Positions 19,118-46,966 of a stretch of 64,000 bases of DNA are shown here, in pieces. The position numbers and the translations under genes are program-made. Positions within the stretch are counted from its first letter, which is position 1, and every line of letters starts with the position of its first letter. Location of the stretch: assembly GCF_038002605.1 (NCBI RefSeq), contig NZ_JBBOCT010000001.1:2480001-2544000 (forward strand), given 5' to 3'. This stretch comes from Bacillus sp. FSL K6-3431 (lineage in GTDB: Bacteria; Bacillota; Bacilli; Bacillales; Bacillaceae_C). A model generated the notes under the pieces. It was not told the origin of the DNA, did not search any database, and was given only the letters and a program-made list of their open reading frames with translations.

Positions 19118-19462
19118 ATGTATCCCTCTTTTCCTATCAATACCATTCATTATAGCAGATGGCTAGTTACCTAACATCAATTAAAACGCCTAGATGCCAC
19201 GACAGATTCTGCACTACAAAAATGTCTTTTTCCAACTTGTCTAATAATTATTTACACTCTTTTTGTCATAGCTTCATATATTTTGTCGAGTGATACTGTG
19301 TTAATTTTTTTCAAAAGCAGCATTTACATAATAAAAGACGCTTTTATACAAATTAAGACATTTAATAGCTTAAAAATTATTTTTAATATTGCTTATTTAT
19401 CGATAGTCTTTTATAGTTAATAAAACAAATCAATTTACTATGAATTGAAAGGGATGAATGAG
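19118..19462. other. Divergent intergenic region between pgcA and the OsmC gene
   Basis: Very A+T-rich and gene-free; it must carry the promoters of both divergent genes. No operator or structured element stands out. Confidence 0.4.
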
Positions 19463-27634: not shown

Positions 27635-28499
27635 TGCGTTTACCCCACAATTCCAATAGTTTTCTAATGATGAATATAGAAACGAACGTAACAATGGACG
27701 CAATGATTGCTACTGCAGAAGCGTACCCAGCCTGTAGATTTGTAAAGGCCTGGTTGAATATTTCCATTTGCCACGTATTTGTTGCAAAATTCGGACCGCC
27801 ACCAGTTAGTTGATAAACCTCTGTAAAAATACCAAACGTGACCCCGATAGAAAGAATTAATACAGTGTAAAGCGCAGGATAAAGAAGTGGGAGCGTAATT
27901 TTCCAAAATACTTGTGAACGGCTTGCCCCGTCAATCTCTGCAGCTTCATAAATTTCATTGTTAATACTTCCTAAACCAGAGGTCAAAATTAACGCGTAAT
28001 AACCAGTAAATTTCCATGCAATAATGATAGAAACAACGAACAATGCAGCAAAGGATGATCCAAGCCAATCAATATCTAACCTAAACACAGATCGTAGAAA
28101 TTCATTTAAAGGGCTGTTATAAGACAAAAACCCTTTTACAATCAAAGAGGAAACAACTCCTGATGCCAAGTACGGTAGAAAAAAACCGATTAAAAATAGG
28201 CCCTTGAACCTAGGTAGTCCATTAATGATCATCGCCACAAGAAGCGAAGAAGCTATCACCATTGGCACAAACAAGGCCATAAACTTAAATGTGACAAAAA
28301 AGGCAGCTTGAACTCCTGGTTGTTTCATTGCTTTAATAAAATTGCCAAAGCCTTCAAAGTTGTATTCTGGCGAAATAAGGTTCCAATCGGTAAACGCCAA
28401 GTACATGGACCAACCTAGTGGTATTAGAAAAAAGGCAAGACCGAATATTAGGTAAGGGCCGGTAAATAACCAGCCCAACCCATTTGTTGCTTTTCGCAT
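27621..28499 (-). CDS. Mannoside ABC transporter permease, MalF type
   Basis: A 292-residue membrane protein opening with TGPYLIFGLAFFLIPLGWSM and carrying the EAA loop EAAEIDGASRSQVFWKITLP. Its ATG shares one base with the stop of the binding-protein gene (TAATG), so translation is coupled. It pairs with the downstream MalG-type permease. No ATPase gene is in the operon, so a shared MsmX-like ATPase is expected. Confidence 0.9.
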   Translation of the reverse strand: MRKATNGLGWLFTGPYLIFGLAFFLIPLGWSMYLAFTDWNLISPEYNFEGFGNFIKAMKQPGVQAAFFVTFKFMALFVPMVIASSLLVAMIINGLPRFKGLFLIGFFLPYLASGVVSSLIVKGFLSYNSPLNEFLRSVFRLDIDWLGSSFAALFVVSIIIAWKFTGYYALILTSGLGSINNEIYEAAEIDGASRSQVFWKITLPLLYPALYTVLILSIGVTFGIFTEVYQLTGGGPNFATNTWQMEIFNQAFTNLQAGYASAVAIIASIVTFVSIFIIRKLLELWGKRNGWA

Positions 28500-29809: not shown

Positions 29810-29889
29810 TTCCACTTTCCTCAACCTCCTATGTATATTCATTTTTAAACTTATAGCCATCTCTAGACCAACATAACTACCCTAAACAT

Positions 29890-30127: not shown

Positions 30128-30184
30128 ACGATTGATGCGTTTTTGCTATACAAGGGAAGTTTCTTAAGAAGGGAAGTACAGACA

Positions 30185-31207
30185 ATGTCTAAAAAAATTA
30201 CGATGCAACAGATAGCCGATCGTTTAAATATATCAAAAAACTCCGTTTCTCAAGCGTTAGGAGGAAAAGACGGGGTTAGTGAAGAAACGAGAAAACTTAT
30301 TGAAGCTACTGCGAAGGAAATGGGATATACATATTCAAACACTCGAAGAACAATACAGAGAAGTGAGATAACGGGAAATATTGGATTAATTGCTTCTGAT
30401 TTTGCATTTTCAATGAAAGGTTTCTTTGGCGAAATATATTTAAGGATCCAACAAGAAGCGAATTTAATGGGGATGAATCTACTTATTTACTCCATTTCTC
30501 CATCAGATGAACAAAACTTAACACTCCCTCACTTCATCCAAAATAAAGAGGTCGAGGGCATTCTGATTCTTTCCCATACTAGTCATGCCTACGCAAATAA
30601 AGTAATAGCCACCGGCATACCGACAATATTAGTTGACCACCACCATCCTCATATACAAGCTGATGCTATATTAACCAATAACCGGTTTGGAGCATATATT
30701 GCTATCCAACACTTAATAGATTTAAAGCATCGGAATATCGCATTTATCGGAAATACCAATTTTTCACCAAGCTATTATGAACGAATGGAGGGTTATCTAC
30801 TTGCGCTGAAAGAAAACGAAATTGACATGAACCCGAATTTTTTAATTGAAAATATCTTAGAGGATGAGCAAATGATTGACGATCTCATCCTATCTATGCC
30901 CAATCCCCCAACAGCATGGTTTTGTGTTAATGATGCAATTGGCTTTTTAGTGAGTTCATCCCTTATTAAACACGGTATGCGCATCCCAAAGGATGTATCT
31001 GTATGTAGTTTTGATAATGGACAACTTTCTCAAATTGCTGTCCCAAAAATTTCTACTATGCATATTGATTTAAAACTATTTGCGAGAAAATCAGTTAAAA
31101 AGCTGATTTGGAGAATCAATCATCCAGATGAGCCATATGAGGAAATCCTTCTTCCAGCAACACTCATCCATAGAGAATCAACAAACGAGGCACCAAGATA
31201 CATCTAA
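30185..31207 (+). CDS. LacI-family transcriptional regulator
   Basis: A 340-residue protein with a LacI helix-turn-helix at 4-50 (ITMQQIADRLNISKNSVSQALGGKDGVSEETRKLIEATAKEMGY) and a sugar-binding domain from about 65 (GNIGLIASDF to LIHRESTNEAP). The HTH carries NSVSQAL in place of the common TVSRAL. The ORF extends to 30143; I take ATG 30185 (MSKKITMQ). It is divergent from the GH130 operon and flanked by CG-centred palindromes, so it most likely represses that operon and itself until a mannoside-derived signal binds. Confidence 0.9.
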   Translation: MSKKITMQQIADRLNISKNSVSQALGGKDGVSEETRKLIEATAKEMGYTYSNTRRTIQRSEITGNIGLIASDFAFSMKGFFGEIYLRIQQEANLMGMNLLIYSISPSDEQNLTLPHFIQNKEVEGILILSHTSHAYANKVIATGIPTILVDHHHPHIQADAILTNNRFGAYIAIQHLIDLKHRNIAFIGNTNFSPSYYERMEGYLLALKENEIDMNPNFLIENILEDEQMIDDLILSMPNPPTAWFCVNDAIGFLVSSSLIKHGMRIPKDVSVCSFDNGQLSQIAVPKISTMHIDLKLFARKSVKKLIWRINHPDEPYEEILLPATLIHRESTNEAPRYI

Positions 31208-31315: not shown

Positions 31316-32401
31316 TCACACTTCCGGAATAAATATTTCCACTTCACGTCCTAGTTCAGACGATCTTAAAATACCATCAATAATAGCCTGGTTGATAAGA
31401 ATTTCTTCCCCTGGAATTGGAGCAGGGCTGTCGGTTTGTATCGCATCCACAAAAGCATGGACTTTTTCATAAAAAATGTCTCGGTTATGCTGCTGCACAG
31501 GAATCGCACTTTCCGTATGATGACCTTGTATATCGTGGAAAAGTGTAATTGAACCAATGCCGCCGTCCCATACACCACTCCATGGTCCACTTCCAGCTGG
31601 TGTCAGTTTTAATCCTGCATCCGTTCCTAGAAATAGTGTTGGTCCTAATGAATCCATATGCATGGCCCATGAGATTTTAAAGTTCAGTACTTTTCCACCT
31701 TCAAGTCGCACCATTGCTACACCGAAATCTTCCACTTGAAATTTTTCCGCTTCTGGATGATATGTAGGATTTGTGCCAAAATGATTTGATGTATACGCAG
31801 ATACACTAAGTGGTTTTGGATAACCTAGCGCGTTTAAAGCAAGATCGAGTGAATAACAGCCAATATCAGCCATTGCTCCTGCGCCTGCTAACTCTTGATT
31901 AATAAATGTACCTCCAGGCATGCCTCTTCTCCGGCCTCCGCCTACTTCTATATAATACACATTACCCAATTCGCCAGACTGCACGATCTTTTTTACCGCT
32001 TCCATATTTGGATCATATCTAGGTTGGAATCCAACAGACAAAATCTTATCGGCTTTCTTACCTTCCTTTACCATTTCAACACCTTGTTCAAGCGTCACAG
32101 CAAGTGGTTTTTCCACTAATACATGCTTCCCGGCCCGAAGTGCATCGATACTTGTTTTGTGGTGTGCAACGTTCGGAGTACAAATACTTACACCATCAAT
32201 ATCTAATTCTAATAAATCCAAATGATTATTAAATCCTTTTGCTCCCGTTAACTCTAACTTTTGCACAAATTCTTCCGCTCTACCCGGCACAACATCAGCT
32301 ACTGCAACAATTTCCACATCTGCCATTCGTTTGTATGCTCTAGCATGAGCTTGCGCAATACCTCCACTACCAATAATTCCTATTTTTATCTTCTTTGCCA
32401 T
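31316..32401 (-). CDS. Gfo/Idh/MocA-family NAD(P)-dependent oxidoreductase
   Basis: A 361-residue enzyme with an N-terminal Rossmann fold (KIGIIGSGGIAQAHARAYKR), the family lysine in HVLVEKPLAVT at about 95, and the C-terminal dehydrogenase domain (GAGAMADIGCYSLDLALNALGYP). Members oxidise or epimerise sugars and inositols. In the usual DxGxHxxD motif the His position is Tyr here, a variation seen in several subfamilies. AGGAG is correctly spaced only for the ATG at 32401, not for the one two codons upstream. It is the last gene of a seven-gene operon, after a sugar isomerase/epimerase; the pair probably converts an unusual imported sugar stepwise. Confidence 0.88.
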   Translation of the reverse strand: MAKKIKIGIIGSGGIAQAHARAYKRMADVEIVAVADVVPGRAEEFVQKLELTGAKGFNNHLDLLELDIDGVSICTPNVAHHKTSIDALRAGKHVLVEKPLAVTLEQGVEMVKEGKKADKILSVGFQPRYDPNMEAVKKIVQSGELGNVYYIEVGGGRRRGMPGGTFINQELAGAGAMADIGCYSLDLALNALGYPKPLSVSAYTSNHFGTNPTYHPEAEKFQVEDFGVAMVRLEGGKVLNFKISWAMHMDSLGPTLFLGTDAGLKLTPAGSGPWSGVWDGGIGSITLFHDIQGHHTESAIPVQQHNRDIFYEKVHAFVDAIQTDSPAPIPGEEILINQAIIDGILRSSELGREVEIFIPEV

Positions 32402-32479
32402 ATTCATCTCCTGCTTTCCATTGGGAATCCGTCTCGCCCCATTATTTGCCGAATATTTACAGCATCATTTTTCGACTTT

Positions 32480-33349
32480 CTACTTGAAAATTTTTGCTAG
32501 ATTTTCTTTTGCTTTAATAATCCCTTGTTGTTCCTTTTCCAACGTTCCCCAATATCGATGATCTTCCAACTCAATACTAATGGGACCATTGTATCCGATT
32601 CCATCTAAGCGCACTGCAATTTTATCCCATTCAATTTCACCATGTCCAGGGATGGTGTATCTCCAAGATCCTTCGGAAAAATCATATTTGGCTCCAAATG
32701 TGGCAGGTAGAGTGCCAACTTCATAGAGTTCATCTGTTAAAATTTCTGTATCCTTTCCATGACAGTAATTAACTTTTTCGCCAAACTCCGTTAGAAACCT
32801 TAGATAGTCTATACCTAAACGCACGAGATGGGATGGATCATAATTTAAACCAAAATGTTTCGAAGGAATCACATCAAACATAGCACGCAGCATCTCAGGT
32901 GTACAGCCAAGCGTCGGATAGTTTGGAGCTGGGCCTGGCCAGCCTTCCATTGCAAAATACACATCTTCTTGTTCCGCATGCTTCACGATTTCAGGAAACG
33001 TTTCTTTCCATATTCCAAAGCCTTTATCACGTGATAAAGTGATATCTTCCGGTACAAGACAAACAAAAACCAACTTTCCACCTAATTTGGAAATACTACT
33101 AATCTGTTCTTTCAACACCTTAACCGCTTCCACACGTTTTGACTCATCTTCACTCAAGACACTACTCAAGCCAACTCCATCAATCGTACCCACTTCCAGA
33201 CCATTAGCTGTTAAAATCCGTTTTACATCTTCATTATAATACGGCACATCCACTACGTCTATGCCAACATCTTTTGCCCAAGTTGCCACTTTTTCCATAC
33301 CTTGAGATCCCAGCTTTGGCGGGATGCGCATACCGATTTTAAATGTCAT
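32480..33349 (-). CDS. Sugar phosphate isomerase/epimerase (xylose-isomerase-like TIM barrel)
   Basis: A 289-residue AP-endonuclease-2-type barrel. Likely metal ligands are Glu in FAMEGWPG, Asp/His in NYDPSHL, His in YCHGKD and Glu in SIELED, the standard arrangement for sugar isomerases and epimerases. Start ATG with AGGAGG. Together with the downstream MocA-type dehydrogenase it resembles gene pairs acting on 3-keto sugars, inositols or glycosides. The dehydrogenase may make a keto intermediate that this enzyme isomerises or cleaves; that is inference. Confidence 0.88.
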   Translation of the reverse strand: MTFKIGMRIPPKLGSQGMEKVATWAKDVGIDVVDVPYYNEDVKRILTANGLEVGTIDGVGLSSVLSEDESKRVEAVKVLKEQISSISKLGGKLVFVCLVPEDITLSRDKGFGIWKETFPEIVKHAEQEDVYFAMEGWPGPAPNYPTLGCTPEMLRAMFDVIPSKHFGLNYDPSHLVRLGIDYLRFLTEFGEKVNYCHGKDTEILTDELYEVGTLPATFGAKYDFSEGSWRYTIPGHGEIEWDKIAVRLDGIGYNGPISIELEDHRYWGTLEKEQQGIIKAKENLAKIFK

Positions 33350-33450
33350 TATTTTGTCCTCCTACGTATATAATGGGTACTTTCATTATAAATTTGTCTA
33401 TTCTAAAATTAAACTAAGGCTAGTTTATCAGATATACCAGTCTATTCCTA

Positions 33451-35439
33451 CTATTTTAATAACTTAATAAATATGCCGCCTACTACAGATCTATTCTGAA
33501 AACCTATCTGTTTACCTGTAACCGTGTCATACCAATCAGTAAAAGGTACTCTACTCGGGGATTCATTCAAAAAGTTCCATAACGGCGTGATCATTTGCTC
33601 AAAATCATCTTTCGATTTAGCCATGGACGCACACCAAACGAGCCAATCCGATTTCGTATATGTGTTCCTATTGTCGAGTGGGATTCCGAACTTATTTTGC
33701 CTGCCAATATAATAGCGAATTTCTTTTTCTATTATATCTTCCGGAAATAGATGGAGTTTGAAAAGGCGATCCCACACTAAGTTATATTTCAGGCTCCAGG
33801 AATCTGGCTCACTATCAAAGGTAAGTTTATAGTGATCATTAGCATCTGCCATTAATACCCACTTACTAGCCATCTCTTTTGCTGCTTGATAATATACTCC
33901 ATCTTCTTCTCCGAGCATTTTGCACATAATGGAATAGGCACCTATACCAAGGATTGCTTTAATAGAAAGATTAGCATTATGCGCCAAATGCCCAGCAAAA
34001 TCATCCGTGCACAATTGGTTTTCCGGATCAAGCCCATTTTCTTTTAAATAATTGGCCCATTTGGTCAGAAGTTTCCAATGTTTTTTTGCAAAATCAGCGT
34101 TATTTTCATATACACTTACTGCCCCGGCCATGATGAGCATATTGCCACATTCTTCGATTGGCATCTGATTTTCCAATCTGTTTTCACCATAAACTTGACC
34201 GTTTGCTTTGGGATAACAGCCCATATCATGAGGAGCAAAGTTAAATGTCCAATCCTCACTGGCTGCATAATGAAATATCGGTCTCATCATCCCTTTAACA
34301 AATTCCGGATTATAATGTAAAAAAAGCGGGATGGATGGATAACTGACATCGACAGTGGCAATACATCCATTACTAAAGTTTTCTTTGGAAAAGAATAATA
34401 TATCTCCATTTTCATCACTTACCAATTTATGTGCTGCAATAGCCTGTCTATAAGCAAGTGATAGTAAGTCCTTATATTTCTCCCCACCAACACTCTTGCT
34501 ATCATTGATCAATTTGCGGTTAAAGGCTGCGCATTTATTTTGAATTTCCTCATATTGACCGATTGCGGAGACGAGCATTTCATCGAACGTTATCCCATCC
34601 CTACGCCAATAGGCATCCAATGGCTTTTCAAAATACTCAATGGAATGAATATCATCATATGCTATCACCAAATATTGCGAAGAATAACGTTCTGTCACCT
34701 GACCACATTCTAATACCATCGCCATTACTAGCGGACTTGCTCCAGCAGATCGTGGCTGATCTTCATCATCCATTTTCGGCAATTGTCCGGTTTCCACAAA
34801 CTGTTTTCTTAAATCATAAGAATGAATAACCGTTTTAATATTACTTCTTTGACGTGCTGCTAAATAAATATATCCCCAATCAATCCTCGTATCATCCCCA
34901 ACTCGTTTCAAAATCTGCTGATCTTCTGTTCCCATATACATTGCAGTAATATTGTCATTTATATTTTTGCGTGACCAGACAATACTTTGATCCGATGTAT
35001 TTACACAAAAGTCACTAGATACATCAAAATAAATATCCACATCATGTGGTTGACCATCTATGGAACGAACCTGAAAGGATACGTACGTAGTCGGCCTTGA
35101 CAACAAGTCCATATCATCAAGAAGTAGCGGTGAGGTAAAACTAACTTCTAATTCTATACCGTCCCCTTCAAACATGTATGTACTTGATAATGGTTCGACT
35201 TTCAAACTTTTTTGAATCAAAGCATTAGGTTCTTCGTACTTTGTATCATCATTTATTTCAACTTTCCCCAAAAATCTTTTAGGCTTACCATCTATCCTAA
35301 TAATTCCGACCATGCTATTACGTTTATTTGTCCAATGCTTGGTATGATCGTCGTAAAGATGATCCGCATCTGACCACACGCTAAAATAAGGATCTATCGT
35401 AGCAAGCGGAACCGATGGGGGTCTAAATTGATTTGACAT
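33451..35439 (-). CDS. Glutaminase-A-family protein (DUF4965/DUF1793 type)
   Basis: A 662-residue protein matching the fungal GtaA-like family. The N-terminal beta part opens RPPSVPLATIDPYFSVWSDADHLYDDHTKHW (residues 6-36). The C-terminal alpha/alpha toroid contains FSNGCIATVDVSYPSIPLFLHYNP, APHDMGCYPKANGQ, MPIEECGNMLIMAGA and CTDDFAGHLAHNANLSIKAI. Fungal members are secreted glutaminases; this one has no signal peptide and lies within a sugar import operon. A toroid with an EECGN motif also fits a glycoside-active enzyme. I suggest it acts inside the cell on the imported saccharide, but the reaction is unknown. Confidence 0.8.
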   Translation of the reverse strand: MSNQFRPPSVPLATIDPYFSVWSDADHLYDDHTKHWTNKRNSMVGIIRIDGKPKRFLGKVEINDDTKYEEPNALIQKSLKVEPLSSTYMFEGDGIELEVSFTSPLLLDDMDLLSRPTTYVSFQVRSIDGQPHDVDIYFDVSSDFCVNTSDQSIVWSRKNINDNITAMYMGTEDQQILKRVGDDTRIDWGYIYLAARQRSNIKTVIHSYDLRKQFVETGQLPKMDDEDQPRSAGASPLVMAMVLECGQVTERYSSQYLVIAYDDIHSIEYFEKPLDAYWRRDGITFDEMLVSAIGQYEEIQNKCAAFNRKLINDSKSVGGEKYKDLLSLAYRQAIAAHKLVSDENGDILFFSKENFSNGCIATVDVSYPSIPLFLHYNPEFVKGMMRPIFHYAASEDWTFNFAPHDMGCYPKANGQVYGENRLENQMPIEECGNMLIMAGAVSVYENNADFAKKHWKLLTKWANYLKENGLDPENQLCTDDFAGHLAHNANLSIKAILGIGAYSIMCKMLGEEDGVYYQAAKEMASKWVLMADANDHYKLTFDSEPDSWSLKYNLVWDRLFKLHLFPEDIIEKEIRYYIGRQNKFGIPLDNRNTYTKSDWLVWCASMAKSKDDFEQMITPLWNFLNESPSRVPFTDWYDTVTGKQIGFQNRSVVGGIFIKLLK

Positions 35440-35563
35440 TTGTAAACAGCTCCTTTTACTTTAGGCTATGTTAAACAACATTGTAGATAGAACGATTTTG
35501 GTCAATATTAGCTCTTGTTCCATGAAACGAAAGCTTATGAACCAATAAATGAACTTAAGTAGC

Positions 35564-35583
35564 GGGGAGCGGACTCACTCCCC
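35564..35583 (-). terminator. Hairpin after the LplA-type binding-protein gene
   Basis: GGGGAG (35564-35569) and CTCCCC (35578-35583) pair around an 8-base loop, extended by partly complementary flanks. There is no T run on the minus strand, so transcription probably reads through into the glutaminase-like gene at reduced level or the 3-prime end is stabilised. Confidence 0.5.
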
Positions 35584-35620
35584 CATGATCCATATATATG
35601 CTCCATATTTGCAACGATAA

Positions 35621-37267
35621 TTAATTAGATGTCCTATACCGCATGAACTCTGTTCCCTCTTTCGCTTGCTTAGATATCTCTGCAGCAACATCATCAATTC
35701 CTGATTTTTTTAATGCTTCTTGCGATCCATTAATTAGTTTCAATGCATCTTTATCAGATTTCGCATGGATTGCTTGTAGTACAACGTCACCTAAGGTATC
35801 AAAAATCGGTTTAATCTGTTCATAATATTCATGATCCTTGAAAACAATATTTGGATCTGTACCTTCTGTTGGCTTAATCCCTTCAGGTGTCATCATTTTA
35901 GCGAATTCTTCCTCCACTTTATACCTTTCATCATATTGATATCCGAAAGGCCCACCTGCTAAGGATACTTGGCGATTTAAGCCTGCTAAACTACCAAACA
36001 TTATTCCCTCGTTTGCTAATGCATTAGAATCGGCTTGCACTTTATCTACCCACTCCTTGTTCGCTTGCACTTTTCCATCCTTCATCTCATAGTGGACTCC
36101 CTCAATACCATAGTTAGCTAGAAGGAAACCTTCATCAGATGATAGATAGTCTAACACACGCATAGCGGCATCTAATTTTTCTTTGGAAGCTGTTTTCGGA
36201 ATTGCAATGAGGTTGGATCCAGTTACATTCACCTCTGTTCGGTTAGGATCCCCACTAAAGTCATTTAATGGCCCTAAAGGAACATATTTATCTTGAAGAC
36301 CTGCCTTTACTAATTCGGTCCAAAGTCCAGGAAATTGATTTGGAATTACTGCAAGGCGACCTTGTGCCAACTTTTCTTTTGCTATAACATCCGTTTGCGT
36401 ATACGCCTCCGGGTCAAGTAATCCTTCATTAAGTAACTTACGCATGTATAAAATATAATCCTCGTAATCTTTAGTCATAAAATTTAATTCTGTTGCTCCA
36501 TTATCTTCAATCATCCAGCTAGCAGACCCAGCAACTGGTACAAACATCTCTGACATGATGTCCAGTGGCCACCCGCCGCCCATCGCACCTAAAGGAAAAA
36601 CAGGGTTGCCATTTTCCTCAAATCTTCCATCTTTTACCGCTTTCAGAAAATGATAAAGATCATCTGGGGTATGAACAGATTGAGGATCTATTCCTACCTT
36701 TTCAGCAATATCTTTATCCACATATAACCCATATAACCAGTTGATTACATCATCAGAAGCGGCTGGATAACCAGTGTGTAGCATATATTGGCCACCTTGC
36801 TGTTTATTAATAATATTATCGTACAAGGAAGTCGACATATTCTCCTTTTTCACTAAGTTGCCTAGATTTGGATACTTATCTATATACTCTGTCAAATCGT
36901 AAAGTTGGTCCTCATTTGCCGCTTTTAGTAATGTTTCACTTTCACCACCCCAAGCAGGACCGATATACATATCGGGGAGCTCTCCAGTAGCAAAAATTTG
37001 CGTGATTTTTTCTACTTCACTTCCCGCGGTATATTCAAATTCTAAGTTAACTCCTGTTTCTTCTAATATTTTTTTAGCAACAGGATTATCAGTATCTTCT
37101 GCGCCACTTGATCCATTCCAGTTATGCAACACTTTTAATGTAATAGGTTCATCTTTACCTTTTTCTTTATTAGCATTTGACTCCTTACTCGTACTTTTAC
37201 AAGCAGATAACGTTATAAGCATGGTGATTATTAAGAAAACAAATGCCATCTTAACTGTCTTTTTCAT
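35621..37267 (-). CDS. LplA-type solute-binding lipoprotein
   Basis: A 548-residue lipoprotein with signal ending LITLSAC (Cys about residue 23) and the long binding fold of the LplA/YtcQ class (ITLKVLHNWNGSSGAEDTDNPVAKKILEETGVNLEFEYTAG). These proteins are larger than CUT1 MalE-type ones. ATG with GGGGGAGA upstream. It follows the LplC-type and LplB-type permease genes on the same strand, so binding protein, both permeases and four enzymes share a transcript. Substrate unknown; related importers take complex polysaccharide-derived oligomers. Confidence 0.92.
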   Translation of the reverse strand: MKKTVKMAFVFLIITMLITLSACKSTSKESNANKEKGKDEPITLKVLHNWNGSSGAEDTDNPVAKKILEETGVNLEFEYTAGSEVEKITQIFATGELPDMYIGPAWGGESETLLKAANEDQLYDLTEYIDKYPNLGNLVKKENMSTSLYDNIINKQQGGQYMLHTGYPAASDDVINWLYGLYVDKDIAEKVGIDPQSVHTPDDLYHFLKAVKDGRFEENGNPVFPLGAMGGGWPLDIMSEMFVPVAGSASWMIEDNGATELNFMTKDYEDYILYMRKLLNEGLLDPEAYTQTDVIAKEKLAQGRLAVIPNQFPGLWTELVKAGLQDKYVPLGPLNDFSGDPNRTEVNVTGSNLIAIPKTASKEKLDAAMRVLDYLSSDEGFLLANYGIEGVHYEMKDGKVQANKEWVDKVQADSNALANEGIMFGSLAGLNRQVSLAGGPFGYQYDERYKVEEEFAKMMTPEGIKPTEGTDPNIVFKDHEYYEQIKPIFDTLGDVVLQAIHAKSDKDALKLINGSQEALKKSGIDDVAAEISKQAKEGTEFMRYRTSN

Positions 37268-37327
37268 CTTTCTCCCCCTAGAAAATGGATTTGCCCTTCT
37301 ATGATAAACTTCTTATAAAAAGAAGAT

Positions 37328-38224
37328 TTATCCCTTAATCGAACCAATCATGACACCTTTGACAAAGTACTTTTGCAGGAATGGATAAACACATAATATT
37401 GGTAAAGTCGCAATCATTAAAGTGGCCATACGTAGAGATTCAGGTGTTGTTTGCGACGCTGTTTGTAATCCTACAGACGTACCTGACTCAGATGCTCGCT
37501 GTGCTGCATTAGCAAGTGCTTGCGATTGGGTTAAAAGTTCGTTCAACAAAGTTTGCACGGGCAGCAAGTCTTTACTAGTAACAAAATAAGTTCCCGTAAA
37601 CCAATCATTCCAATGAAACACTCCAATAAAAAGGCCAATCGTGGCTAGAACGGGTGTAGACAATGGTAAAACAATTTTTGTAAAAAAGCGGAAATCGCCA
37701 CATCCATCTATTTTGGCAGACTCTTCTAACGAACTAGGAAGTTGCTGAAAAAAGGTTCTTAGCACAATGATATTAAAAAAGTTATATAAGAATGGGATGA
37801 CATAAACCCCAAACGAGTTGATTAGGCCTAAATCTCTATATAAAACAAAAGTTGGTATCATTCCACCACCAAAGAGAGTAGGTATAAATATGAAGAAGGT
37901 AAAAAAGGTTTTCCCAGGTAATGCTTTCTTCGTTAGCGCATAAGCAAACAATGCACTTAAAAACACATGTAGAGCAGTACCGATCATCGTCCGTAAAATA
38001 GTTATTTGATAAGCATCAAGAAACTTAGTATCTTTAAATATTTGAATATAGTTTTCAATTGTAAACCCCTTGGGGAAAAAGTAAATTGGGTTTTTCATCG
38101 CTTCCACCCCATCACTTAGCGAATAGGCTAAAATATATATGAAAGGGTATAAGGTAATGAATGCAAATAGCGCTAATACTGAATAGTTCATGATGGAAAA
38201 AAGTGACCATTTTCTTGTGTTCAT
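37328..38224 (-). CDS. LplC-type ABC transporter permease
   Basis: A 298-residue membrane protein with LplC/YtcP features: SLSDGVEAMKNPIYFFPKGFTIENY after the first segment and the EAA loop LEESAKIDGCGDFRFFTKIVLP. The C-terminal end PFLQKYFVKGVMIGSIKG is diagnostic of this class. The ORF opens at 38260, but the ATG at 38224 (MNTRKWSLF) behind AAGGAG is the likely start, 17 bases after the LplB-type stop. No ATPase gene is in the operon. Confidence 0.92.
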   Translation of the reverse strand: MNTRKWSLFSIMNYSVLALFAFITLYPFIYILAYSLSDGVEAMKNPIYFFPKGFTIENYIQIFKDTKFLDAYQITILRTMIGTALHVFLSALFAYALTKKALPGKTFFTFFIFIPTLFGGGMIPTFVLYRDLGLINSFGVYVIPFLYNFFNIIVLRTFFQQLPSSLEESAKIDGCGDFRFFTKIVLPLSTPVLATIGLFIGVFHWNDWFTGTYFVTSKDLLPVQTLLNELLTQSQALANAAQRASESGTSVGLQTASQTTPESLRMATLMIATLPILCVYPFLQKYFVKGVMIGSIKG

Positions 38225-38240
38225 TTCACAGGACTCTCCT

Positions 38241-39206
38241 TTACCATAAGGATGTTTCATTTACCTTTTTGCTAATTTGATTGGCTGTAATGATAAGAAT
38301 CAATCCTATGATTCCTTGGAATAACCCCACCGCGGTTGCATAACTAAAACGCCCTTGTTCTAGACCAGCCTTTATTACATAAACATCTAACACAGTTCCT
38401 ATCGAGGCGGTTGCAGGAGTGTTCAGAAGTAATAATTGCTCATATCCCGCTGACATAATGCCGCCACAAGCAAGAATAAACAAGATAACCATGACGCCTC
38501 TAATTGACGGTATTGTTACATGCCACATTTGCCTGAATCTGTTAGCACCGTCAATTTTTGCTGCCTCGTACAACTGCGGATCCACACCCGCAATGGCCGC
38601 TAAATAGATAATAGCTCCCCATCCAACACCCTTCCAAACATCGGAAAGAATAATAACTTGATAGAAGTATTTCACGTTTCCTAATATTGAAACTTTGTCA
38701 AAGCCAAACGTTGCAATCAATTCATTAATAGGCCCACCATAAGGCGTAAACATCCTTTGCATTAATGTAACAACTACAACCCATGAGATAAAGTGTGGTA
38801 AATAAGAGATGGTTTGTACTGTTCTCTTAAACTTTGTAACCCTTACCTCATTTAACATAAGAGCTAATATAATAGGCATCGGAAAGCCAATAAGTAATTT
38901 CAGTAAACTGATAATTAATGTATTCCGAATGATTTCCCCAGATTGATAGTACTGGAAAAACTGCTTAAAATACTTCAAGCCTGCCCATGGACTCCCCAGT
39001 ATTCCTTGAGTAAAATTAAAATCCTTGAATGCAATTGTTATTCCATACATCGGAATATAAGAAAAGATAATAAACCAAATAATTCCTGGTAGTAAAAAGA
39101 GGTAGAAAACCCGATGTTCCCATATCCTAAACCAGATGTTTTTTTTCTTATTTTGGAGTACGTATGCATGTTGGGATGACGCTTTTATTTCCACGTTCCT
39201 CTTCAT
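38241..39206 (-). CDS. LplB-type ABC transporter permease
   Basis: A 321-residue membrane protein with class features FYLFLLPGIIWFIIFSYIPMYGI, FKDFNF, the EAA loop YEAAKIDGANRFRQMWHVT and the end RFSYATAVGLFQGIIGLIL. GAGGAGG with ideal spacing marks ATG 39206 as the start rather than 39233. It pairs with the LplC-type permease to import the ligand of the LplA-type protein. Confidence 0.92.
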   Translation of the reverse strand: MKRNVEIKASSQHAYVLQNKKKNIWFRIWEHRVFYLFLLPGIIWFIIFSYIPMYGITIAFKDFNFTQGILGSPWAGLKYFKQFFQYYQSGEIIRNTLIISLLKLLIGFPMPIILALMLNEVRVTKFKRTVQTISYLPHFISWVVVVTLMQRMFTPYGGPINELIATFGFDKVSILGNVKYFYQVIILSDVWKGVGWGAIIYLAAIAGVDPQLYEAAKIDGANRFRQMWHVTIPSIRGVMVILFILACGGIMSAGYEQLLLLNTPATASIGTVLDVYVIKAGLEQGRFSYATAVGLFQGIIGLILIITANQISKKVNETSLW

Positions 39207-39274
39207 TTTTCCTCCTCTCCCTAGGGTTGTCATCGGAAAACCTAGGTTCTATGAATTGACACGGATGCCACTTC

Positions 39275-41455
39275 TTACCACTCTATTTGCACCTTCGTTA
39301 CCTCTTTGGAGCTATGGATATAGTTAAGTAGGATTGTTTTCGATCTTTCATGCCATTCCCAATGTATAGATTCACTTTTGTTTCCTATTATTAAATTGAT
39401 TTTTATTGGCTTTTCAGGAGAAAATAGACGTGCTACTGCATTTAGTTTTTCAGGCCCTCGAACAATCATTTCTAAACTATTTTTCGTTTGTTTCCATTCC
39501 TCTATTCTTGACGACGCAGCAATTAAACTCACTTCCTCCTCCCGTCGATCATAGTCCAAGTCATATAAAAGAATATTCTCACCCAGATTTATGGACATTT
39601 GATTAACAACGCTTAATTGCGGATCAAATAAATCGACATAATTCCCTTCCAATTTCAGTGGCTCTGAACTAACGGATTCATCCAAAACAGCAGCTATTAA
39701 ATAAGGGCCACGTTGCAACATAAAATAATTCTTTTCTTCCAAAGTGATTTCCTTATCAAAAACCTCGATACTTTTCTGGAGAATTTCTCTTAATAAATCA
39801 GCATTCTTTGTACTTTCCGTACATTTATCAGGTGAAAGATGTAAATAACCAAGTACTCCATTACCCACTTTGTATATCCCTTGTGTATGCTGGCCCGTTA
39901 GCCCTAAGCATTCAAAAAGATGTTCTCTTGGCGAATTATATGAATGTTTCCCTGTATTCCACCACTCTCTTACTTTATGGTAAGGGTCACTATCATCGCC
40001 AACATAGATAAGTACTCCACCTTCTTTTACCCATTGTGCAAGTGCATTATGAATATCAGGGTATTGTGGTTTTAGAAACTCATAACTTAAAATTAACAGT
40101 CGATATTTATTTAAATAATTTGCAAATCGGCGGATATTATCTAATTGTATCGGTCTGACCCATAGTCCTCTTTTTAAAAGAGGTAATGCCAGCCCATAAA
40201 AAGAAGAGAAGTTTAATAGTTCAATATCTTGTAATTCTGTTACTGAATTCGTTTCGGTACCATCATACCTTCCATTACTCTCCTTTTTTTCACTTGAAAT
40301 ATCCATCCTTTGATACATCATCGAATCAGATACAAGGACACCAATTTTTTCAGACGCACCCTCAATACGAACTTCTTTTTGATCCATATTCCCTAATGTG
40401 TGCATAATTGTTAAAAGTGTTGTCGCATAATCTTTAGGGATAGTCTCAAGACCAGTTCCTTCTTCATTAGGATATTTGCCTTCAAAGATCCGCCTCGGCC
40501 ATGGAGAAACTTCATAATGGAAGACATCAGGATGTAATAATGAAGCCACGACTGTTTTAAAATAATTTTGTCGGTAGTCCGACCATGTATATCTTGGATT
40601 ATCTTCTATTGGATCATGTAAAAACCACATTCTTCGATCGGTACCACTCACCAATTCCTGCATCATACCGTACTCTAAAAAGGCGGTTTCAAAGGTTCGT
40701 TCCTTACGAATTCCTTCATATACATTTGGAGTTCGGGAAGTTCCCGTCCATATTTGCGCAATATAACCGTCCACCGCTGGCAAATCAATTAGCATAGACT
40801 CAGGACTAATAATTTTCCATTGCGTATAATTGATAAGGCTATGAGTTGGAACATAGAAACGAAGGAAACGATTATATTCTACTAATGCATACTCTTTCAA
40901 TTCACTACATAACCGATCCAAGCTGCGAGCATATAAATAAGCTTTAAGATGTGATGCTCGATATTGGGCATCTACGGATTCATGTGGTGGAATCCATGGT
41001 TCTTTATAATAGATTCTCCATTCCCTTTTAAATGCTTCAGAGTAACCTCCTTCCACCCAAAATTCAGGTTCTTCGAGATGGATAGCCTCTACTCCCGCGT
41101 CCACTGCTAATCTAATTCGGTTCGTTAAAAAATTCGTATAGGCAATAGTCGGTACCATATAAGGAACATCTACCCCGTGACTAATATTTGATCCACTTTT
41201 ATTTTTTTGAGCTTCATCCCAATGGTTCTTACCGTCGATTTCTCCATACAAATATTCCTTATATTCCCCCCACGCTACTCCGGTCATTAAGTGGACAATA
41301 TATCCCTTTTCCCTCCACTTTTGAATACGTTGCGGCATCGACTTATCGATTCCATAAACCATGACAAAATCTGTTTGTAAATCATAGGATGAATTGAAAA
41401 CAGCCGATTCTTGAAAACCTGTTTTTTCTTCCGTTCGATTTCGGTTTAACATCAT
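39275..41455 (-). CDS. Uncharacterised large protein, probable TIM-barrel glycoside hydrolase
   Basis: A 726-residue cytoplasmic protein that I do not assign to a named family. Residues 1-370 look like a TIM barrel: DFVMVYGIDKSMPQRIQKW, KGYIVHLMTGVAWGEY, AGVEAIHLEEPEFWVEGGYS (a plausible catalytic acidic cluster near residue 126) and MWFLHDPIEDNP. Residues about 375-540 resemble the glutamine-amidotransferase-like trimerisation domain of GH42 enzymes (YRLLILSYEFLKPQYPDIHNALAQWVKEGGVLIYVGDD). The C-terminus is beta-rich. Start ATG with AGGAG. It is the first gene of the LplABC operon, as expected for the main hydrolase of the imported substrate. Confidence 0.65.
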   Translation of the reverse strand: MMLNRNRTEEKTGFQESAVFNSSYDLQTDFVMVYGIDKSMPQRIQKWREKGYIVHLMTGVAWGEYKEYLYGEIDGKNHWDEAQKNKSGSNISHGVDVPYMVPTIAYTNFLTNRIRLAVDAGVEAIHLEEPEFWVEGGYSEAFKREWRIYYKEPWIPPHESVDAQYRASHLKAYLYARSLDRLCSELKEYALVEYNRFLRFYVPTHSLINYTQWKIISPESMLIDLPAVDGYIAQIWTGTSRTPNVYEGIRKERTFETAFLEYGMMQELVSGTDRRMWFLHDPIEDNPRYTWSDYRQNYFKTVVASLLHPDVFHYEVSPWPRRIFEGKYPNEEGTGLETIPKDYATTLLTIMHTLGNMDQKEVRIEGASEKIGVLVSDSMMYQRMDISSEKKESNGRYDGTETNSVTELQDIELLNFSSFYGLALPLLKRGLWVRPIQLDNIRRFANYLNKYRLLILSYEFLKPQYPDIHNALAQWVKEGGVLIYVGDDSDPYHKVREWWNTGKHSYNSPREHLFECLGLTGQHTQGIYKVGNGVLGYLHLSPDKCTESTKNADLLREILQKSIEVFDKEITLEEKNYFMLQRGPYLIAAVLDESVSSEPLKLEGNYVDLFDPQLSVVNQMSINLGENILLYDLDYDRREEEVSLIAASSRIEEWKQTKNSLEMIVRGPEKLNAVARLFSPEKPIKINLIIGNKSESIHWEWHERSKTILLNYIHSSKEVTKVQIEW

Positions 41456-41504
41456 TAATCTCTCCTATTTTTCAAATAGACCTCATTATTTTTGTATAAG
41501 TGCG

Positions 41505-41715
41505 TATCCAAAAAGGTTCCAAATTAGAAACAAGAAGTTCGAGGCGCGAAGGTTTTGAGGATCTGACGTGCACAGGATGTGCTGACTTCTGTGTTGCTCA
41601 CAGGACGTGAGCGAACTTAACAGAAGATCATTCCTAATATACGTGAGAACCGAAAAACCAAGCAACGAAGAAATTCGCCGTTTATCATTTGGTGACTTTT
41701 TGAACATCCTCTATA
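41505..41715. repeat. Hairpin-rich Bacillaceae-type intergenic repeat
   Basis: About 210 bp that I recognise as an intergenic repeat of the group, running from AAGGTTCCAAATTAG to GACTTTTTGAACATCC. It contains nested hairpins: GCACAGGATGTGC (41570-41582), and GCTCACAGGACGTGAGC (41596-41612) enclosed by CTTCTGT/ACAGAAG. Its stem-loop style (ACAGGACGTG) is shared with the cluster at 48.6 kb and the element at 9.17 kb. The minus-strand ORF across it (41486-41707) is an artefact. It sits in the presumed promoter region of the LplABC operon. Confidence 0.6.
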
Positions 41716-41742
41716 AGTTTCTCTTTCACTTATGATAAAACA

Positions 41743-41805
41743 GGTGAACCTCTGAAATAGTATAAATCCGAGCTATCCCTATGGAGGTTCACCCATTTCA
41801 TTTTT
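41743..41805 (-). terminator. Terminator of the GxGYxYP gene
   Basis: GGTGAACCTC (41743-41752) pairs perfectly with GAGGTTCACC (41784-41793); TGTTTTAT follows on the minus strand. It separates the secreted protein gene from the downstream operon, so the two are separate transcription units. Confidence 0.65.
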
Positions 41806-41838
41806 TAATTATTTTCAAATTGATTATTGGAATTGATT

Positions 41839-43896
41839 TTATTTTTTTGGTAATCCTTTGGTTTTTCGAAAAAGGTCGAAGTACTGATCTCCACGTACAA
41901 CCTCATATTCCGGCCCTAATGAATCTGCAATTTCCTCAATGTCCGATGGAGTGATAGACCAAGCTAACATTCCCATTGAAATAAATAACGGTGTCTCTCC
42001 ATCCCAATTGACAGATGCTTTTGCAATACCTTCCTTCGCTTCTCTTACACTGCCGGCAGCGAGTAATATCGCCTGTGGGAGTTTGCCATTTAGCACTGTT
42101 GTTTCACTGTAATTATCCCAGCCAAGGAAAATCCCTTTTGGATTTACATAATCGATATAACTTTGTACCTTAGATTCCGATAATGGCACATCATGACCGT
42201 CAACGCGGTTAAGCGCATACAAAATATCCATACCGGTTTGTTTCATATACTTACTCGTTTGTTTTGTAAAGACGTTGAATGTTTCATCAGGCCAAGGTTC
42301 AGGATAGATGTAACCAGCGCCTGATGGGCCTGCAACCAAAAGGTCGTTATCGGTTGCTGTATGTTGGTAATAACCTAAAATCGAAGGTGCCACATCATAG
42401 AGAAGTGGGCTGGTCGTCCAGTTAATAGGTACATTCCCTCTTCTCTCATCATCCCAAAGTAGTCTAAATCGATGTTGGTTATATTGCAGATTGTCACCTT
42501 CTCCTAGTGTAAAAGTTAGATAAATTTTGTTATCTAATATTGGAGTAGATAAAGGCTTTTGCTTTTTGATTTTCCCCTTCGCTCCTGAGAAAACTGTCAT
42601 ATTATTAAACCAATCGGCCGCAAGTACGTAGACACTATGCTTAGAAGCAAGTTCTGTCCCACTAAATTCTCCGGCTACATCATTACCGAACCATCCTAAA
42701 TAAGGTGTATTAGGTTCAACATCCGACAGAATACTTTCAAACAATTTCTTTTCTTCCGGTACATTTGATTCAAGCCAGAACACCATTGCACGGTTCGCTA
42801 CTGCATAATCTCTTAAATATCCATATGGTTCAGTCAACTCAGATGATTCAGGTTGAACATTTGATGCAGTTACTTTAAACTGATTCCACATATCAACGGA
42901 AACAACAAGTTCCTCAGCATCCTCTGGAGGGGTAAACTTGTACACAAAGTATCTACCATTATCCGCCCAGCGATGTCCGCCGAATCTCTCATCCGCGTTT
43001 GATTCGTTTCGGTCAAATAAATAGGACTCTTCTTCTGATGTACCAGGTATAAACTGGGTAACGATTTGCCCGTCTACTTTCACAGTTACCTCATGTACAG
43101 CAGGACCCCAACCGTCTGATGGAAAGGCATCTTGAAAACGGAGATAAACGGCATCCTTTCCAAGTAACTCTGATAAATCTAGATCGTATACTTGACGGTT
43201 AGAACTATCTCTAACTTCTTCCTCGTCTTGAATAATCGTCTGAAAAGCATCCCAATTACCATCGGGAAGCGCTACACTCTTGCTCGGATTCAAACCAATT
43301 AGCATGCGATGAGTTGTCTCTGGCCAGAGGTGCTCAAATTGCCATGTATATGCATCCAACCCGTCTGTGAAGCGTCCACGTAAATCCTCAATCACAGTAA
43401 AATTATAAGGTGCTTCTGTCAGTTTCTTAGCAATTTCAGGGCCTGCTACTATGGCATTTTCCAATCCTGCCATCGTCGTCGCAACATTGATTGAATCCTC
43501 CACTTTTGGATCATAGATGATAATCCCTGATACCTCTTTCTTATATTTCAATAGGAGTTCCCACGGACTTTCAATCTTTGTATAAGGTACGTCCAAATCG
43601 TTTAACCAAGTATCATTCCCTTCTTCAAAGTCTGTTTCGATAATATACATTCTTGGCTTTTCACGGTTCACGTTTCCTTGAAGCGTAGTAAATAGCAACT
43701 TCTCATCACCTGTATTTTTCCTTATATCAACGACATCAAGATGCTTTGCTTTTGCAAATGAAGGCAAAGCTTGGCTTTTAGGCCATTTAATTTTTCCATT
43801 ATTAGCAGATTCTAAGTTAGGGCTTACTGCAGAGACGGCAGTACCTGAAAGTACTATCACCAGTGTCAAACTTAGCAACAGAAGTCTTCGAAGCAT
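41839..43896 (-). CDS. Secreted GxGYxYP-family protein (putative glycoside hydrolase)
   Basis: A 685-residue exported protein. The signal peptide (MLRRLLLLSLTLVIVLSGTAVSA) starts at ATG 43896, preceded by GGAGG; the ORF itself extends to 43947. An N-terminal domain (about 45-200, VVDIRKNTGDEKLLFTTLQGNVNREKPRMYI) is followed by a jelly-roll-like insert (about 215-350) and the GxGYxYP domain, whose name-giving motif appears as SGAGYIYPEPWP. It is a candidate extracellular polysaccharide-degrading enzyme that would supply the importer encoded downstream. A cre box and a leader hairpin lie upstream. Enzymatic activity of this family is, to my knowledge, poorly defined. Confidence 0.82.
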   Translation of the reverse strand: MLRRLLLLSLTLVIVLSGTAVSAVSPNLESANNGKIKWPKSQALPSFAKAKHLDVVDIRKNTGDEKLLFTTLQGNVNREKPRMYIIETDFEEGNDTWLNDLDVPYTKIESPWELLLKYKKEVSGIIIYDPKVEDSINVATTMAGLENAIVAGPEIAKKLTEAPYNFTVIEDLRGRFTDGLDAYTWQFEHLWPETTHRMLIGLNPSKSVALPDGNWDAFQTIIQDEEEVRDSSNRQVYDLDLSELLGKDAVYLRFQDAFPSDGWGPAVHEVTVKVDGQIVTQFIPGTSEEESYLFDRNESNADERFGGHRWADNGRYFVYKFTPPEDAEELVVSVDMWNQFKVTASNVQPESSELTEPYGYLRDYAVANRAMVFWLESNVPEEKKLFESILSDVEPNTPYLGWFGNDVAGEFSGTELASKHSVYVLAADWFNNMTVFSGAKGKIKKQKPLSTPILDNKIYLTFTLGEGDNLQYNQHRFRLLWDDERRGNVPINWTTSPLLYDVAPSILGYYQHTATDNDLLVAGPSGAGYIYPEPWPDETFNVFTKQTSKYMKQTGMDILYALNRVDGHDVPLSESKVQSYIDYVNPKGIFLGWDNYSETTVLNGKLPQAILLAAGSVREAKEGIAKASVNWDGETPLFISMGMLAWSITPSDIEEIADSLGPEYEVVRGDQYFDLFRKTKGLPKK

Positions 43897-43966
43897 TTTT
43901 CTTCTCCTCCATTCTTCTAACAGATAATAATTTCGAAACTTTTTCAAAAAGAACCCACATACCTAT

Positions 43967-44005
43967 AACTCGCTCTTTAAATCTATTAAACAATAAAGCG
44001 AGCTA
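43967..44005 (-). promoter_or_regulatory. 5-prime leader hairpin of the GxGYxYP gene
   Basis: On the minus strand TAGCTCGCTTTA (44005-43994) can pair with TAAAGAGCGAGTT (43979-43967) with one bulge. Just upstream is a spare ribosome-binding-like AAAGGAGGTGATTTAC (about 44036-44021) that opens only a 22-codon frame from its GTG. The leader may control translation or stabilise the mRNA. Confidence 0.4.
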
Positions 44006-44100
44006 CGGATTAAACCTAAGTAAATCACCTCCTTTATTACAACAATCTATTTCATGATTTACACCGAATCAGCTTTTAACTAATCTATGTGGAGATATAA

Positions 44101-44114
44101 TGAAAGCGCTATAA
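44101..44114. promoter_or_regulatory. cre site (CcpA)
   Basis: TGAAAGCGCTATAA matches 13 of 14 consensus positions, about 205 bases upstream of the GxGYxYP start. Confidence 0.6.
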
Positions 44115-44312
44115 TTTAAGGTTATGTACAATATAAAGTTGATAAAGGAGGCTGGGTTTCTTTCACCCTTTCAACAACAGGGGTAAGGATTCTACTATTT
44201 GGGAAATCACTCGTTTCGATAATTAAACACTTTCTGAATTCTCTATAAACATCATTTGTTATAAATACTATAACTAATAACGCATTTATGTCAATGAAAT
44301 TTTTCCCAAAAT

Positions 44313-44350
44313 AAAAAGCATCCAAATTTATATCAGTATTTGGATACTTT
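44313..44350 (-). terminator. Terminator of the GntR/AraR-like gene
   Basis: On the minus strand AAAGTATCCAAA (44350-44339), a loop and TTTGGATGCTTTTT (44326-44313): an imperfect 10-bp stem with a T run, 19 bases past the stop. Confidence 0.75.
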
Positions 44351-44368
44351 AAAGTTTTATATAATCTC

Positions 44369-45544
44369 CTACGATTTACGCGTGATGGGGGGGCCTGTTG
44401 TTTCCTTAACCACTAACTTTGGAGGAATGTTCTTCTTTTTATAATCAAATGGTCTATTATTTTTTCGACTATCAAGTAGTTGGATCAATATCTGTGCAGC
44501 TTCTTGACCTATTTTTTTCTCGGATTGGGAAATATGAGTGTATATCCCCAATTCATCATATTCATATGAGGGATTGTCGAAGGTAATAATGGATATATCC
44601 TCAGGTACTTTCAAGCCAATACGTTTCGCCAATCTCGAAATATAAATCCCAAGATTTGCATTCAAAGTAATATAAGCAGATGCATTGCGCCCGCTCACAT
44701 ATCGATACAATGGATGATCACTATTTATATTGCTATAATCCACTCTAAAATCAGTTAGGATTAGGGATGGATCAATCATAGCCTTTTTCTCTTTAAGCGC
44801 ATCCATATATCCTTTAATACGATCTTCTACTGTAATGGTCGGAAGTGCCGAATCAGAACAGATGGCAATCTCTCGATGGCCCAAATCCCACAAATGTGAA
44901 ACAGCCAGTTTTGCCCCATCAACATTGTCAGAACTAACATAATTTGTTTCTACTCCTGGCAAATAACGATCAATAAGCACAAATGGAAAATCACGAACCT
45001 TCAGCTCAAGAATATCGTCATTATAGGTTTCAGCATCTACTGGAAAGATAAGCAAACCCTCCACGCCCATTCGTAGCAGTTCCGTTATCGCCTCCCGTTC
45101 CATATCTTTTGAGTTATGACTAAGCATGATCACGATATAATAATTCGTTTGTTTTAAAACCTCATTAATGCCATTTATTAATCGTATGGCAAAAAAGTCT
45201 TCAATCGAAGGCATAATAAGCCCAATCTTTTTTCGGTTCTGGGCAGAGGAATCTGAAACCTTCAGTAAGTCCTCACTCCCTTGATTATTAATCATGCTTT
45301 TATTCATTAAGTCATGTATTCCCTCTTTTACAAAACTTCCTTTTCCAGGAATCCGATAAATCCACCCCTCCTTCGCCAATTCGGCTAAGGCATTCGCAAC
45401 AGTAATCCTACTAACTTTATACTTCTCCATGATTTCTCGTTCAGTTGGAATTTTTTCATGCACAGACAGCCTTTTTGAATAAATTTCTTTTTTATAATAT
45501 TCTTTAATTTGTAAGTAGAGTGGCATTCTTGTTTGATTTGTCAT
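44369..45544 (-). CDS. GntR/AraR-type transcriptional regulator
   Basis: A 391-residue protein with a GntR winged helix (residues 8-75: LYLQIKEYYKKEIYSKRLSVHEKIPTEREIMEKYKVSRITVANALAEL) and a LacI-type effector domain from about 105 (KKIGLIMPSIEDFFAIRLINGINEVLKQTNYYI, ISIITFDNPSYEYDELGIYTHISQ). ATG with AGGGG. It lies upstream of the GxGYxYP gene and the LplABC operon on the same strand, so it is the likely local regulator. Direct repeats (ATATCATT) at about 45577-45600, in front of it, may be its own binding site. Confidence 0.88.
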   Translation of the reverse strand: MTNQTRMPLYLQIKEYYKKEIYSKRLSVHEKIPTEREIMEKYKVSRITVANALAELAKEGWIYRIPGKGSFVKEGIHDLMNKSMINNQGSEDLLKVSDSSAQNRKKIGLIMPSIEDFFAIRLINGINEVLKQTNYYIVIMLSHNSKDMEREAITELLRMGVEGLLIFPVDAETYNDDILELKVRDFPFVLIDRYLPGVETNYVSSDNVDGAKLAVSHLWDLGHREIAICSDSALPTITVEDRIKGYMDALKEKKAMIDPSLILTDFRVDYSNINSDHPLYRYVSGRNASAYITLNANLGIYISRLAKRIGLKVPEDISIITFDNPSYEYDELGIYTHISQSEKKIGQEAAQILIQLLDSRKNNRPFDYKKKNIPPKLVVKETTGPPITRKS

Positions 45545-46960: not shown

Positions 46961-46966
46961 GCCTGA

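Follow-up and report, generated by a model that had tools for sequence, protein, structure and literature searches.

We analysed a 64,000-nucleotide stretch of the genome of Bacillus sp. FSL K6-3431 (positions 2480001-2544000 of contig 1 in a genome of 5.5 Mb; hereafter the window) and focused on a cluster of nine genes at 31316-45544, all on the minus strand (Table 1). A first-pass annotation had read this cluster as a sugar-use locus. Open reading frames (ORFs) verified the positions of the nine genes, Pfam searches gave a family to all but the 726-residue protein, and the analysis below supports a coherent locus that probably acts on mannose-rich glycans. Seven genes, from the one for a 726-residue protein that we call TIM726 to that for the MocA-type dehydrogenase, are closely packed: the LplC and LplB genes overlap by 20 bp, and the remaining gaps are 41-181 bp. 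The gene for the GxGYxYP protein is flanked by intergenic gaps of 383 and 421 bp. The solute-binding lipoprotein and two permeases make up an importer of the CUT1/Lpl type without an ATPase of its own; Pfam identified no ATP-binding cassette (ABC) ATPase gene among the nine. In Bacilli, importers of this type are usually served by a shared ATPase encoded elsewhere.

Table 1. Genes of the TIM726 locus and neighbouring features, in window coordinates.
Position	Strand	Feature	Basis
44369..45544	-	Regulator with GntR-type DNA-binding head and LacI-type sugar-sensor domain; likely local repressor	Pfam GntR and Peripla_BP_3
41839..43947	-	GxGYxYP-family protein, probably secreted	All four Pfam GxGYxYP domains
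39275..41455	-	TIM726, 726 residues; predicted glycoside hydrolase, cytoplasmic, in an unnamed family	Predicted fold
38241..39233	-	LplB-type ABC importer permease	Pfam BPD_transp_1
37328..38260	-	LplC-type ABC importer permease	Pfam BPD_transp_1
35621..37267	-	Solute-binding lipoprotein of the importer	Pfam SBP_bac_1; lipobox LSAC by eye
33451..35439	-	GtaA/DUF4965-family protein, 662 residues	Pfam GtaA_6_Hairpin, DUF5127 and DUF4964
32480..33349	-	Sugar isomerase/epimerase-like TIM barrel (xylose-isomerase-like); accessory	Pfam AP_endonuc_2
31316..32407	-	Gfo/Idh/MocA dehydrogenase; accessory	Pfam GFO_IDH_MocA
30143..31207	+	LacI-type regulator between the locus and the neighbouring beta-mannoside operon	Pfam LacI
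26804..29860	-	Second sugar ABC importer, in the neighbouring operon: solute-binding protein plus two permeases	Pfam; orthologues adjoin the TIM726 locus in L017
25827..26759	-	DUF1861 protein, MPT type	Pfam DUF1861; nearest solved structures include MPT-4, MPT-2 and MPT-1
24774..25826	-	GH130, probable beta-1,2-mannobiose phosphorylase	Pfam GH130; nearest solved structure Lin0857, E 1.4e-149
17375..19150	-	Phosphoglucomutase/phosphomannomutase that may use mannose-1-phosphate	Pfam; orthologue beside GH130 in L017

TIM726 matched no family in Pfam or NCBIfam. Relatives from two other loci (L004 and L068) also had no family match at E 0.1, and a third (L054) gave DUF4350 (E 0.0014) and two further matches, all below their cut-offs. 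We counted at least 7,691 homologues (7,996 candidates scored), and the best 120 carry no Pfam domain, save one that is fused with a piece of GtaA. Among solved structures, a search with the single sequence found no relative, and a profile search returned two matches at E 0.13, both to one protein, which we judged to be chance. Nor did the fetched loci yield a GH42 reference protein when they were searched by motif. The AlphaFold2 model (predicted local distance difference test score 90.4, predicted template modelling score 0.92) consists of a triosephosphate isomerase (TIM) barrel, a Rossmann-like trimerisation domain of the GH42 type and a beta-sandwich, which is the three-domain layout of glycoside hydrolase (GH) families 42 and 164 and supports the GH42-like middle domain that the first-pass annotation had proposed. 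Its fold matches were GH42, GH164 and an exo-glucosaminidase, at an identity of about 10% and with 6t7g and 6t5o among the best. By eye, the N-terminus has neither a signal segment nor a lipobox. Taken together, the model suggests that TIM726 is likely a candidate new glycoside hydrolase family with a GH42/GH164-like build. We recognised no prior description of the locus or of the TIM726 family in the literature searched, from which most subscription papers were out of reach.

One scan of species genomes gave us 74 TIM726-bearing loci. Sequences were taken from 71 of these, leaving aside L012 (a stop codon within the match) and L070 and L074 (low coverage), and an alignment (A1) was made of the window sequence and 40 of the 71. 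Two adjacent residues, E128 and E129, are invariant in all 41 rows and follow a short strand that is the fourth of the barrel, provided that residues 12-16 form the first. For the nucleophile expected at the end of strand 7, the candidates are D281 (39/41) and E315 (41/41), with E284 present in 37/41 only. The 726-type genes of L068, L069 and L075 form a separate branch at 36-37% identity; L068 and L075 lack D281, W236 and W319 and possibly have a different or lost activity, and L069 lies outside the alignment. In a Metabacillus assembly (L062:10001-12556), the 726-type sequence passes at about residue 565 into the C-terminal portion of GtaA, without the importer genes that separate the two in L002, which could reflect a deletion or an assembly fault.

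The 662-residue protein was assigned correctly to the GtaA/DUF4965 family (PF16335, E 2.4e-143; PF17168, E 9.9e-54), but despite that family's name it is probably not a glutaminase. The model of the protein best matched a GH116 beta-glucosidase and a GH52 beta-xylosidase and has the (alpha/alpha)6 glycosidase fold. By sequence it is not a GH116 member, with Pfam returning GtaA, DUF5127 and DUF4964 only and identity at about 14%. The single sequence found no relative among solved structures, and a profile of six GtaA sequences found one match (E 0.074), also judged to be chance; the family alignment (A3) comprised the window sequence and 22 of 27 listed sequences. The proteins called glutaminase A, with the domain order DUF4964-DUF5127-DUF4965-DUF1793, belong to the same domain family and share the GH116/GH52-like fold. 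In the available part of the report on them, a Streptomyces member converted no glutamine and had weak beta-galactosidase activity, and a fungal member carries a secretion signal (PMC9668830). In contrast, the window protein has no signal peptide or lipobox visible by eye and stands in a mannose context. With the fold and the homologue literature both pointing elsewhere, we rejected a glutaminase role.

The GxGYxYP protein probably starts at an internal ATG at residue 18 of the ORF, judging from a hydrophobic segment seen by eye behind that codon. It matches the BT2193 structure 3sgg (E 8.3e-26). When aligned to the triad proposed for BT2193, Glu272/Asp331/Asp333, it keeps Asp333 as D485 and has E483 in place of Asp331; no acid aligns with Glu272, and E427 lies three residues further on. 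According to the accessible text of one study, GxGYxYP genes occur in a Bacteroides alpha-mannan locus and near GH92 and GH38 in Caldithrix (PMC4071793). They adjoin alpha-mannosidases in the Bacteroides polysaccharide utilisation loci, as they do in the relative loci examined here, although the Bacteroides loci hold GH99 and GH92 (PMC4071793, in part) and the TIM726-type loci combine TIM726 and GtaA with ABC import and, in relatives, GH38. The association of GxGYxYP with mannose enzymes recurs in Bacilli and in one Verrucomicrobium.

We then examined which neighbours accompany TIM726 in the 74 loci (tblastn, E 1e-15). Homologues of the GntR regulator were found in 38, GtaA in 33, GxGYxYP in 31, LplB in 11 and the solute-binding protein in 8, and LplC orthologues of 74-86% identity occur in six (L002, L004, L005, L006, L017 and L037). 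GtaA lies within 450 bp of TIM726 and on the same strand in 22 of its 33 loci, and GxGYxYP in 4 of its 31. The isomerase was found in two loci only (L006, filed as Paenibacillus bovis, and L013, Bacillus niameyensis, both of the window's genus). MocA-like genes were found in five, one close in L006 (85%) and four others at 26-32%. Thus, of the full set that had been expected to travel together, a core of seven genes recurs (regulator, GxGYxYP, TIM726, importer and GtaA), and the rarity of the isomerase and MocA genes makes these two accessory. Because the isomerase is so rare, we rejected the view, favoured by the first-pass annotation, that the central step is to oxidise and isomerise an unusual sugar. 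A different binding-protein-like ORF of about 488 residues is common to 24 of the 74 loci, in most cases together with permeases that resemble their counterparts in the second importer of the window at only 22-31%. Since the importer varies while the enzymes stay constant, the locus seems to be defined by its enzymes rather than by its importer.

The neighbours in relatives point to a substrate class. We searched the 74 loci for GH38, GH92, GH125, GH85, GH76 and GH130 with few query proteins at E 1e-10, so that distant members may escape, and for the locus-type GH38 at E 1e-15. A GH38 alpha-mannosidase gene is present in 34 loci, in 29 of these within 450 bp of TIM726 and on the same strand, and the neighbour of about 1000 residues was GH38 by Pfam in all three loci scanned (L004, L009 and L061). 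At seven GH38 matches in the 5.5-Mb window genome, the arithmetic chance of one in a 22-kb stretch is about 3%. Most of the locus-linked GH38 proteins are at least 57-63% identical to one another. GtaA and GH38 occur jointly in 27 loci, and GtaA, GxGYxYP and GH38 in 22. GH92 was found in three loci, GH125 in three (L014, L053 and L058), GH85 in one, and GH130 with DUF1861 in one; GH76 had no match in the 74. Any of GH38, GH92, GH125, GH85 and GH130 was present in 39 loci, including L014, where GH38 was matched only by other GH38 queries.

In L002 a GH92 gene follows GtaA, and L062 has its orthologue at 84%. In L013, the gene for a GH85 endo-beta-N-acetylglucosaminidase stops 5.6 kb short of the 726-type gene, and GH43 (on the opposite strand), GntR and GxGYxYP genes lie between the two. 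In one genome (G221), GH125 and the 726-type gene share a strand and are separated by about 140 bp. L017 carries GH130, DUF1861 and phosphomannomutase genes and their importer beside LplBC, solute-binding protein, GtaA, TIM726 and GH38, and so joins the same two modules that neighbour each other in the window. In L058, from Verrucomicrobia, the order on one strand is GtaA, GxGYxYP, TIM726, a major facilitator superfamily gene, GH125 and GH92. Other scanned neighbours were GH127 in L020 (Bacillus sp. SD088, also of the window's genus) and ThiI in L042 and L045, and several matched no family.

In the host genome, two GH85 and two GH76 genes lie 5-47 kb beyond the window end: GH85 at 2549054, without an obvious signal peptide, GH85 at 2570106-2572964, with a hydrophobic N-terminus, and GH76 at 2583225 and 2590000. 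GH125 and GH38 occur together elsewhere in the genome, around 2305563 and 4665515, and GH92 had no match in it. The substrate had been considered impossible to name. The GH38, GH92, GH125 and GH85 genes of relatives, together with the GH85, GH76, GH130 and DUF1861 genes near the locus in its own genome, allow the class to be named, and we conclude with fair confidence that it is a mannose-rich glycan. Among 250 sampled genomes from the class of the window, TIM726 is present in 11. GH125 was present in all 11 and in 31 of the 239 others (Fisher p 9e-10), counting all 42 GH125 genomes, three of them weak and without TIM726 (G068, G089 and G112). Clear GH85 (E below 1e-30; 30 of 49 listed genomes, the other 19 being weak, without TIM726 and uncounted) was present in 9 of the 11 and in 21 of the 239 (p 7e-8). 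Also beyond the window end are a Cache-AraC sensor-regulator and two gene sets that look importer-like, among which one protein (L087:7333-8961) matches no Pfam family. Three consecutive sulfatase genes (2557559-2562473; L087:13559-18473) lie between the GH85 genes, a hint of a sulfated mannose-rich glycan.

Several observations weigh against a mannose role. In 35 of the 74 loci none of the tested mannose enzymes was found; several of these are on short contigs, many are from rumen Clostridia, and three are of the window's own genus (L003, Lederbergia sp. NSJ-179; L006; L020). Pfam identified no alpha-mannosidase or endo-enzyme among the nine locus genes. The seven GH38 matches in the window genome comprise four with 23-38% identity to the locus-linked type and three that gave no hit to it, so that, by sequence comparison, the locus-type GH38 seems absent. 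The genome-level association is inflated by kinship: a single family (f13) accounts for 9 of the 11 TIM726 genomes, another (f8) for one, and the last is the window's own. Inside the window's genus, GH85 fails to tell the groups apart (3/6 TIM726-positive and 3/10 negative, the six including a GH85-negative genome, G014, whose TIM726 copy is partial with a stop). In clan GH-A, the acid/base glutamate after strand 4 is usually preceded by asparagine, and TIM726 has E128 before E129. The second catalytic residue is also ambiguous, with D281 and E315 both candidates. Finally, according to the available part of a 2014 paper, work on the GxGYxYP proteins of mannan loci had uncovered no activity (PMC4071793).

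Some of these points would fit a TIM726 that acts in the cytoplasm as a general glycosidase, its specificity broad or varied and its neighbours recruited locally rather than for one substrate. The loci without the tested mannose enzymes and the GH127 gene in L020 agree with this, as does a rumen bacterium with a tandem GH95 pair directly before the 726-type gene (L040:5713-9969). ORFs of the same cluster as that pair occur in L041 and L070, and the GH95 contexts indicate that the wide TIM726 family may be mixed in substrate. The joint recurrence of GtaA and GH38, and that of GtaA, GxGYxYP and TIM726 with GH125 and GH92 in a Verrucomicrobium, argue against local recruitment as the whole explanation, which we consider unlikely.

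Somewhat less probable is that the substrate is another mannose-containing heteropolysaccharide, such as a xanthan-like polymer or fungal glucuronoxylomannan, from which GH38 would take mannose and GtaA xylose or glucose. The best fold matches of GtaA, to a beta-glucosidase and a beta-xylosidase, would suit such a substrate, and a Paenibacillus xanthan locus likewise holds GH38 and GH92; that cluster, so far as the source was available, also has polysaccharide lyase family 8 (PL8), GH88 and GH9 (PMC12827396). In the window genome, the one clear member of the GH88 family is 1.1 Mb distant (of these three families GH88 alone was searched for, and in this genome only), and the GH85, GH76, GH125 and GH130/DUF1861 genes indicate N-linked and yeast-type mannan instead. 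As improbable is the release of an unusual sugar that MocA would oxidise and the isomerase rearrange, for example by a 3-keto-glycoside route: the two genes close the window cluster, adjoin the core again in L006 and recur near it in L013 with weaker MocA-like genes, and the weak NCBIfam matches of MocA include glycoside and disaccharide 3-dehydrogenases, but the isomerase and a close MocA are confined to two loci and one of the 74, and the NCBIfam scores of both proteins fall far under the curated cut-offs. A literature search on the 3-keto glycoside route returned no paper.

We therefore favour, as reasonably probable, a locus that imports and finishes fragments of mannose-rich glycans, either fungal alpha-mannan or high-mannose N-glycan, with TIM726 as an undescribed GH42/GH164-like family. 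From the computed gene content, conservation and folds we infer the substrate, the order of steps and the bond cut. Outside the cell, the GxGYxYP protein and other enzymes of the genome that appear to be secreted (GH85 and GH76) would act on the glycan, and the lipoprotein with LplB and LplC would take in the oligosaccharides. In the cytoplasm, TIM726 and the GH116-like GtaA would remove residues that resist the GH38 and GH125 alpha-mannosidases of the genome. The GntR-LacI-type regulator would sense a product, and the isomerase and MocA dehydrogenase would provide optional later steps. Our guess is that TIM726 cleaves a mannosidic bond, most plausibly that of the core beta-mannose left after alpha-mannosidases have acted.

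Known systems offer partial parallels. The GH164 beta-mannosidase Bs164, as described in the portion of its report that was available, has a GH42-like trimeric build (PMC7105311), and TIM726 resembles it in its TIM barrel, GH42-like trimerisation domain and beta-sandwich. The two differ in that identity is about 10%, there is no meaningful sequence match and the strand-7 catalytic glutamate is not found with certainty in TIM726. In Cutibacterium acnes, GH38 has a cytoplasmic beta-mannosidase as its partner in a GH38/GH5_18/GH20 locus for N-glycan degradation, which, from the part of the paper at hand, is alike in combining a cytoplasmic GH38, another cytoplasmic glycosidase and transporters (PMC6160142). 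Its partner enzyme is GH5_18, whereas TIM726 loci have an unnamed family with GtaA and GxGYxYP, and the window cluster lacks GH38.

Beyond the LacI-type regulator, the window holds a second mannose-related set at 24774-29860, where GH130, DUF1861 and importer genes form a beta-1,2-mannoside module that is also present in L017. We take the DUF1861 gene to belong to GT108, a beta-1,2-mannan phosphorylase-transferase family of Leishmania; the structure labels themselves say only LmxM. Lin0857 and the Leishmania MPT proteins are thus the nearest solved-structure relatives of two genes in an adjoining operon with its own LacI regulator, outside the nine-gene locus. Lin0857 is a GH130 beta-1,2-mannobiose phosphorylase of Listeria innocua (PMC8950772, available in part). 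On the other side, directly beside the GntR regulator, GguB/GguA/ChvE-like monosaccharide transporter genes lie at 45800-49817, and after them, at 50060-53075, comes a two-component system. Farther off, a 997-residue ORF (1143-4136) has a solute-binding domain limited to residues 600-891, and the preceding 600 or so residues have no Pfam match. No operator palindrome was common to 48 upstream regions; six near-palindromes were found, all unshared.

A wider possibility, which we put forward tentatively and hold to be somewhat doubtful, is that TIM726 founds a glycoside hydrolase family of thousands of members and that, with the GH116-like GtaA and GxGYxYP, it forms a cross-phylum set for finishing mannose-rich glycans. 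If so, the trio would supply the partners so far missing beside GH38, GH92 and GH125, and the role of GxGYxYP proteins in mannan loci would be explained. Three poorly understood families in one context gain a testable substrate class. If TIM726 acts on mannosides, a single assay would be enough to put a name to a glycoside hydrolase family of at least 7,691 homologues. For GtaA and GxGYxYP, it would also offer a natural substrate on which these two families could be tried.

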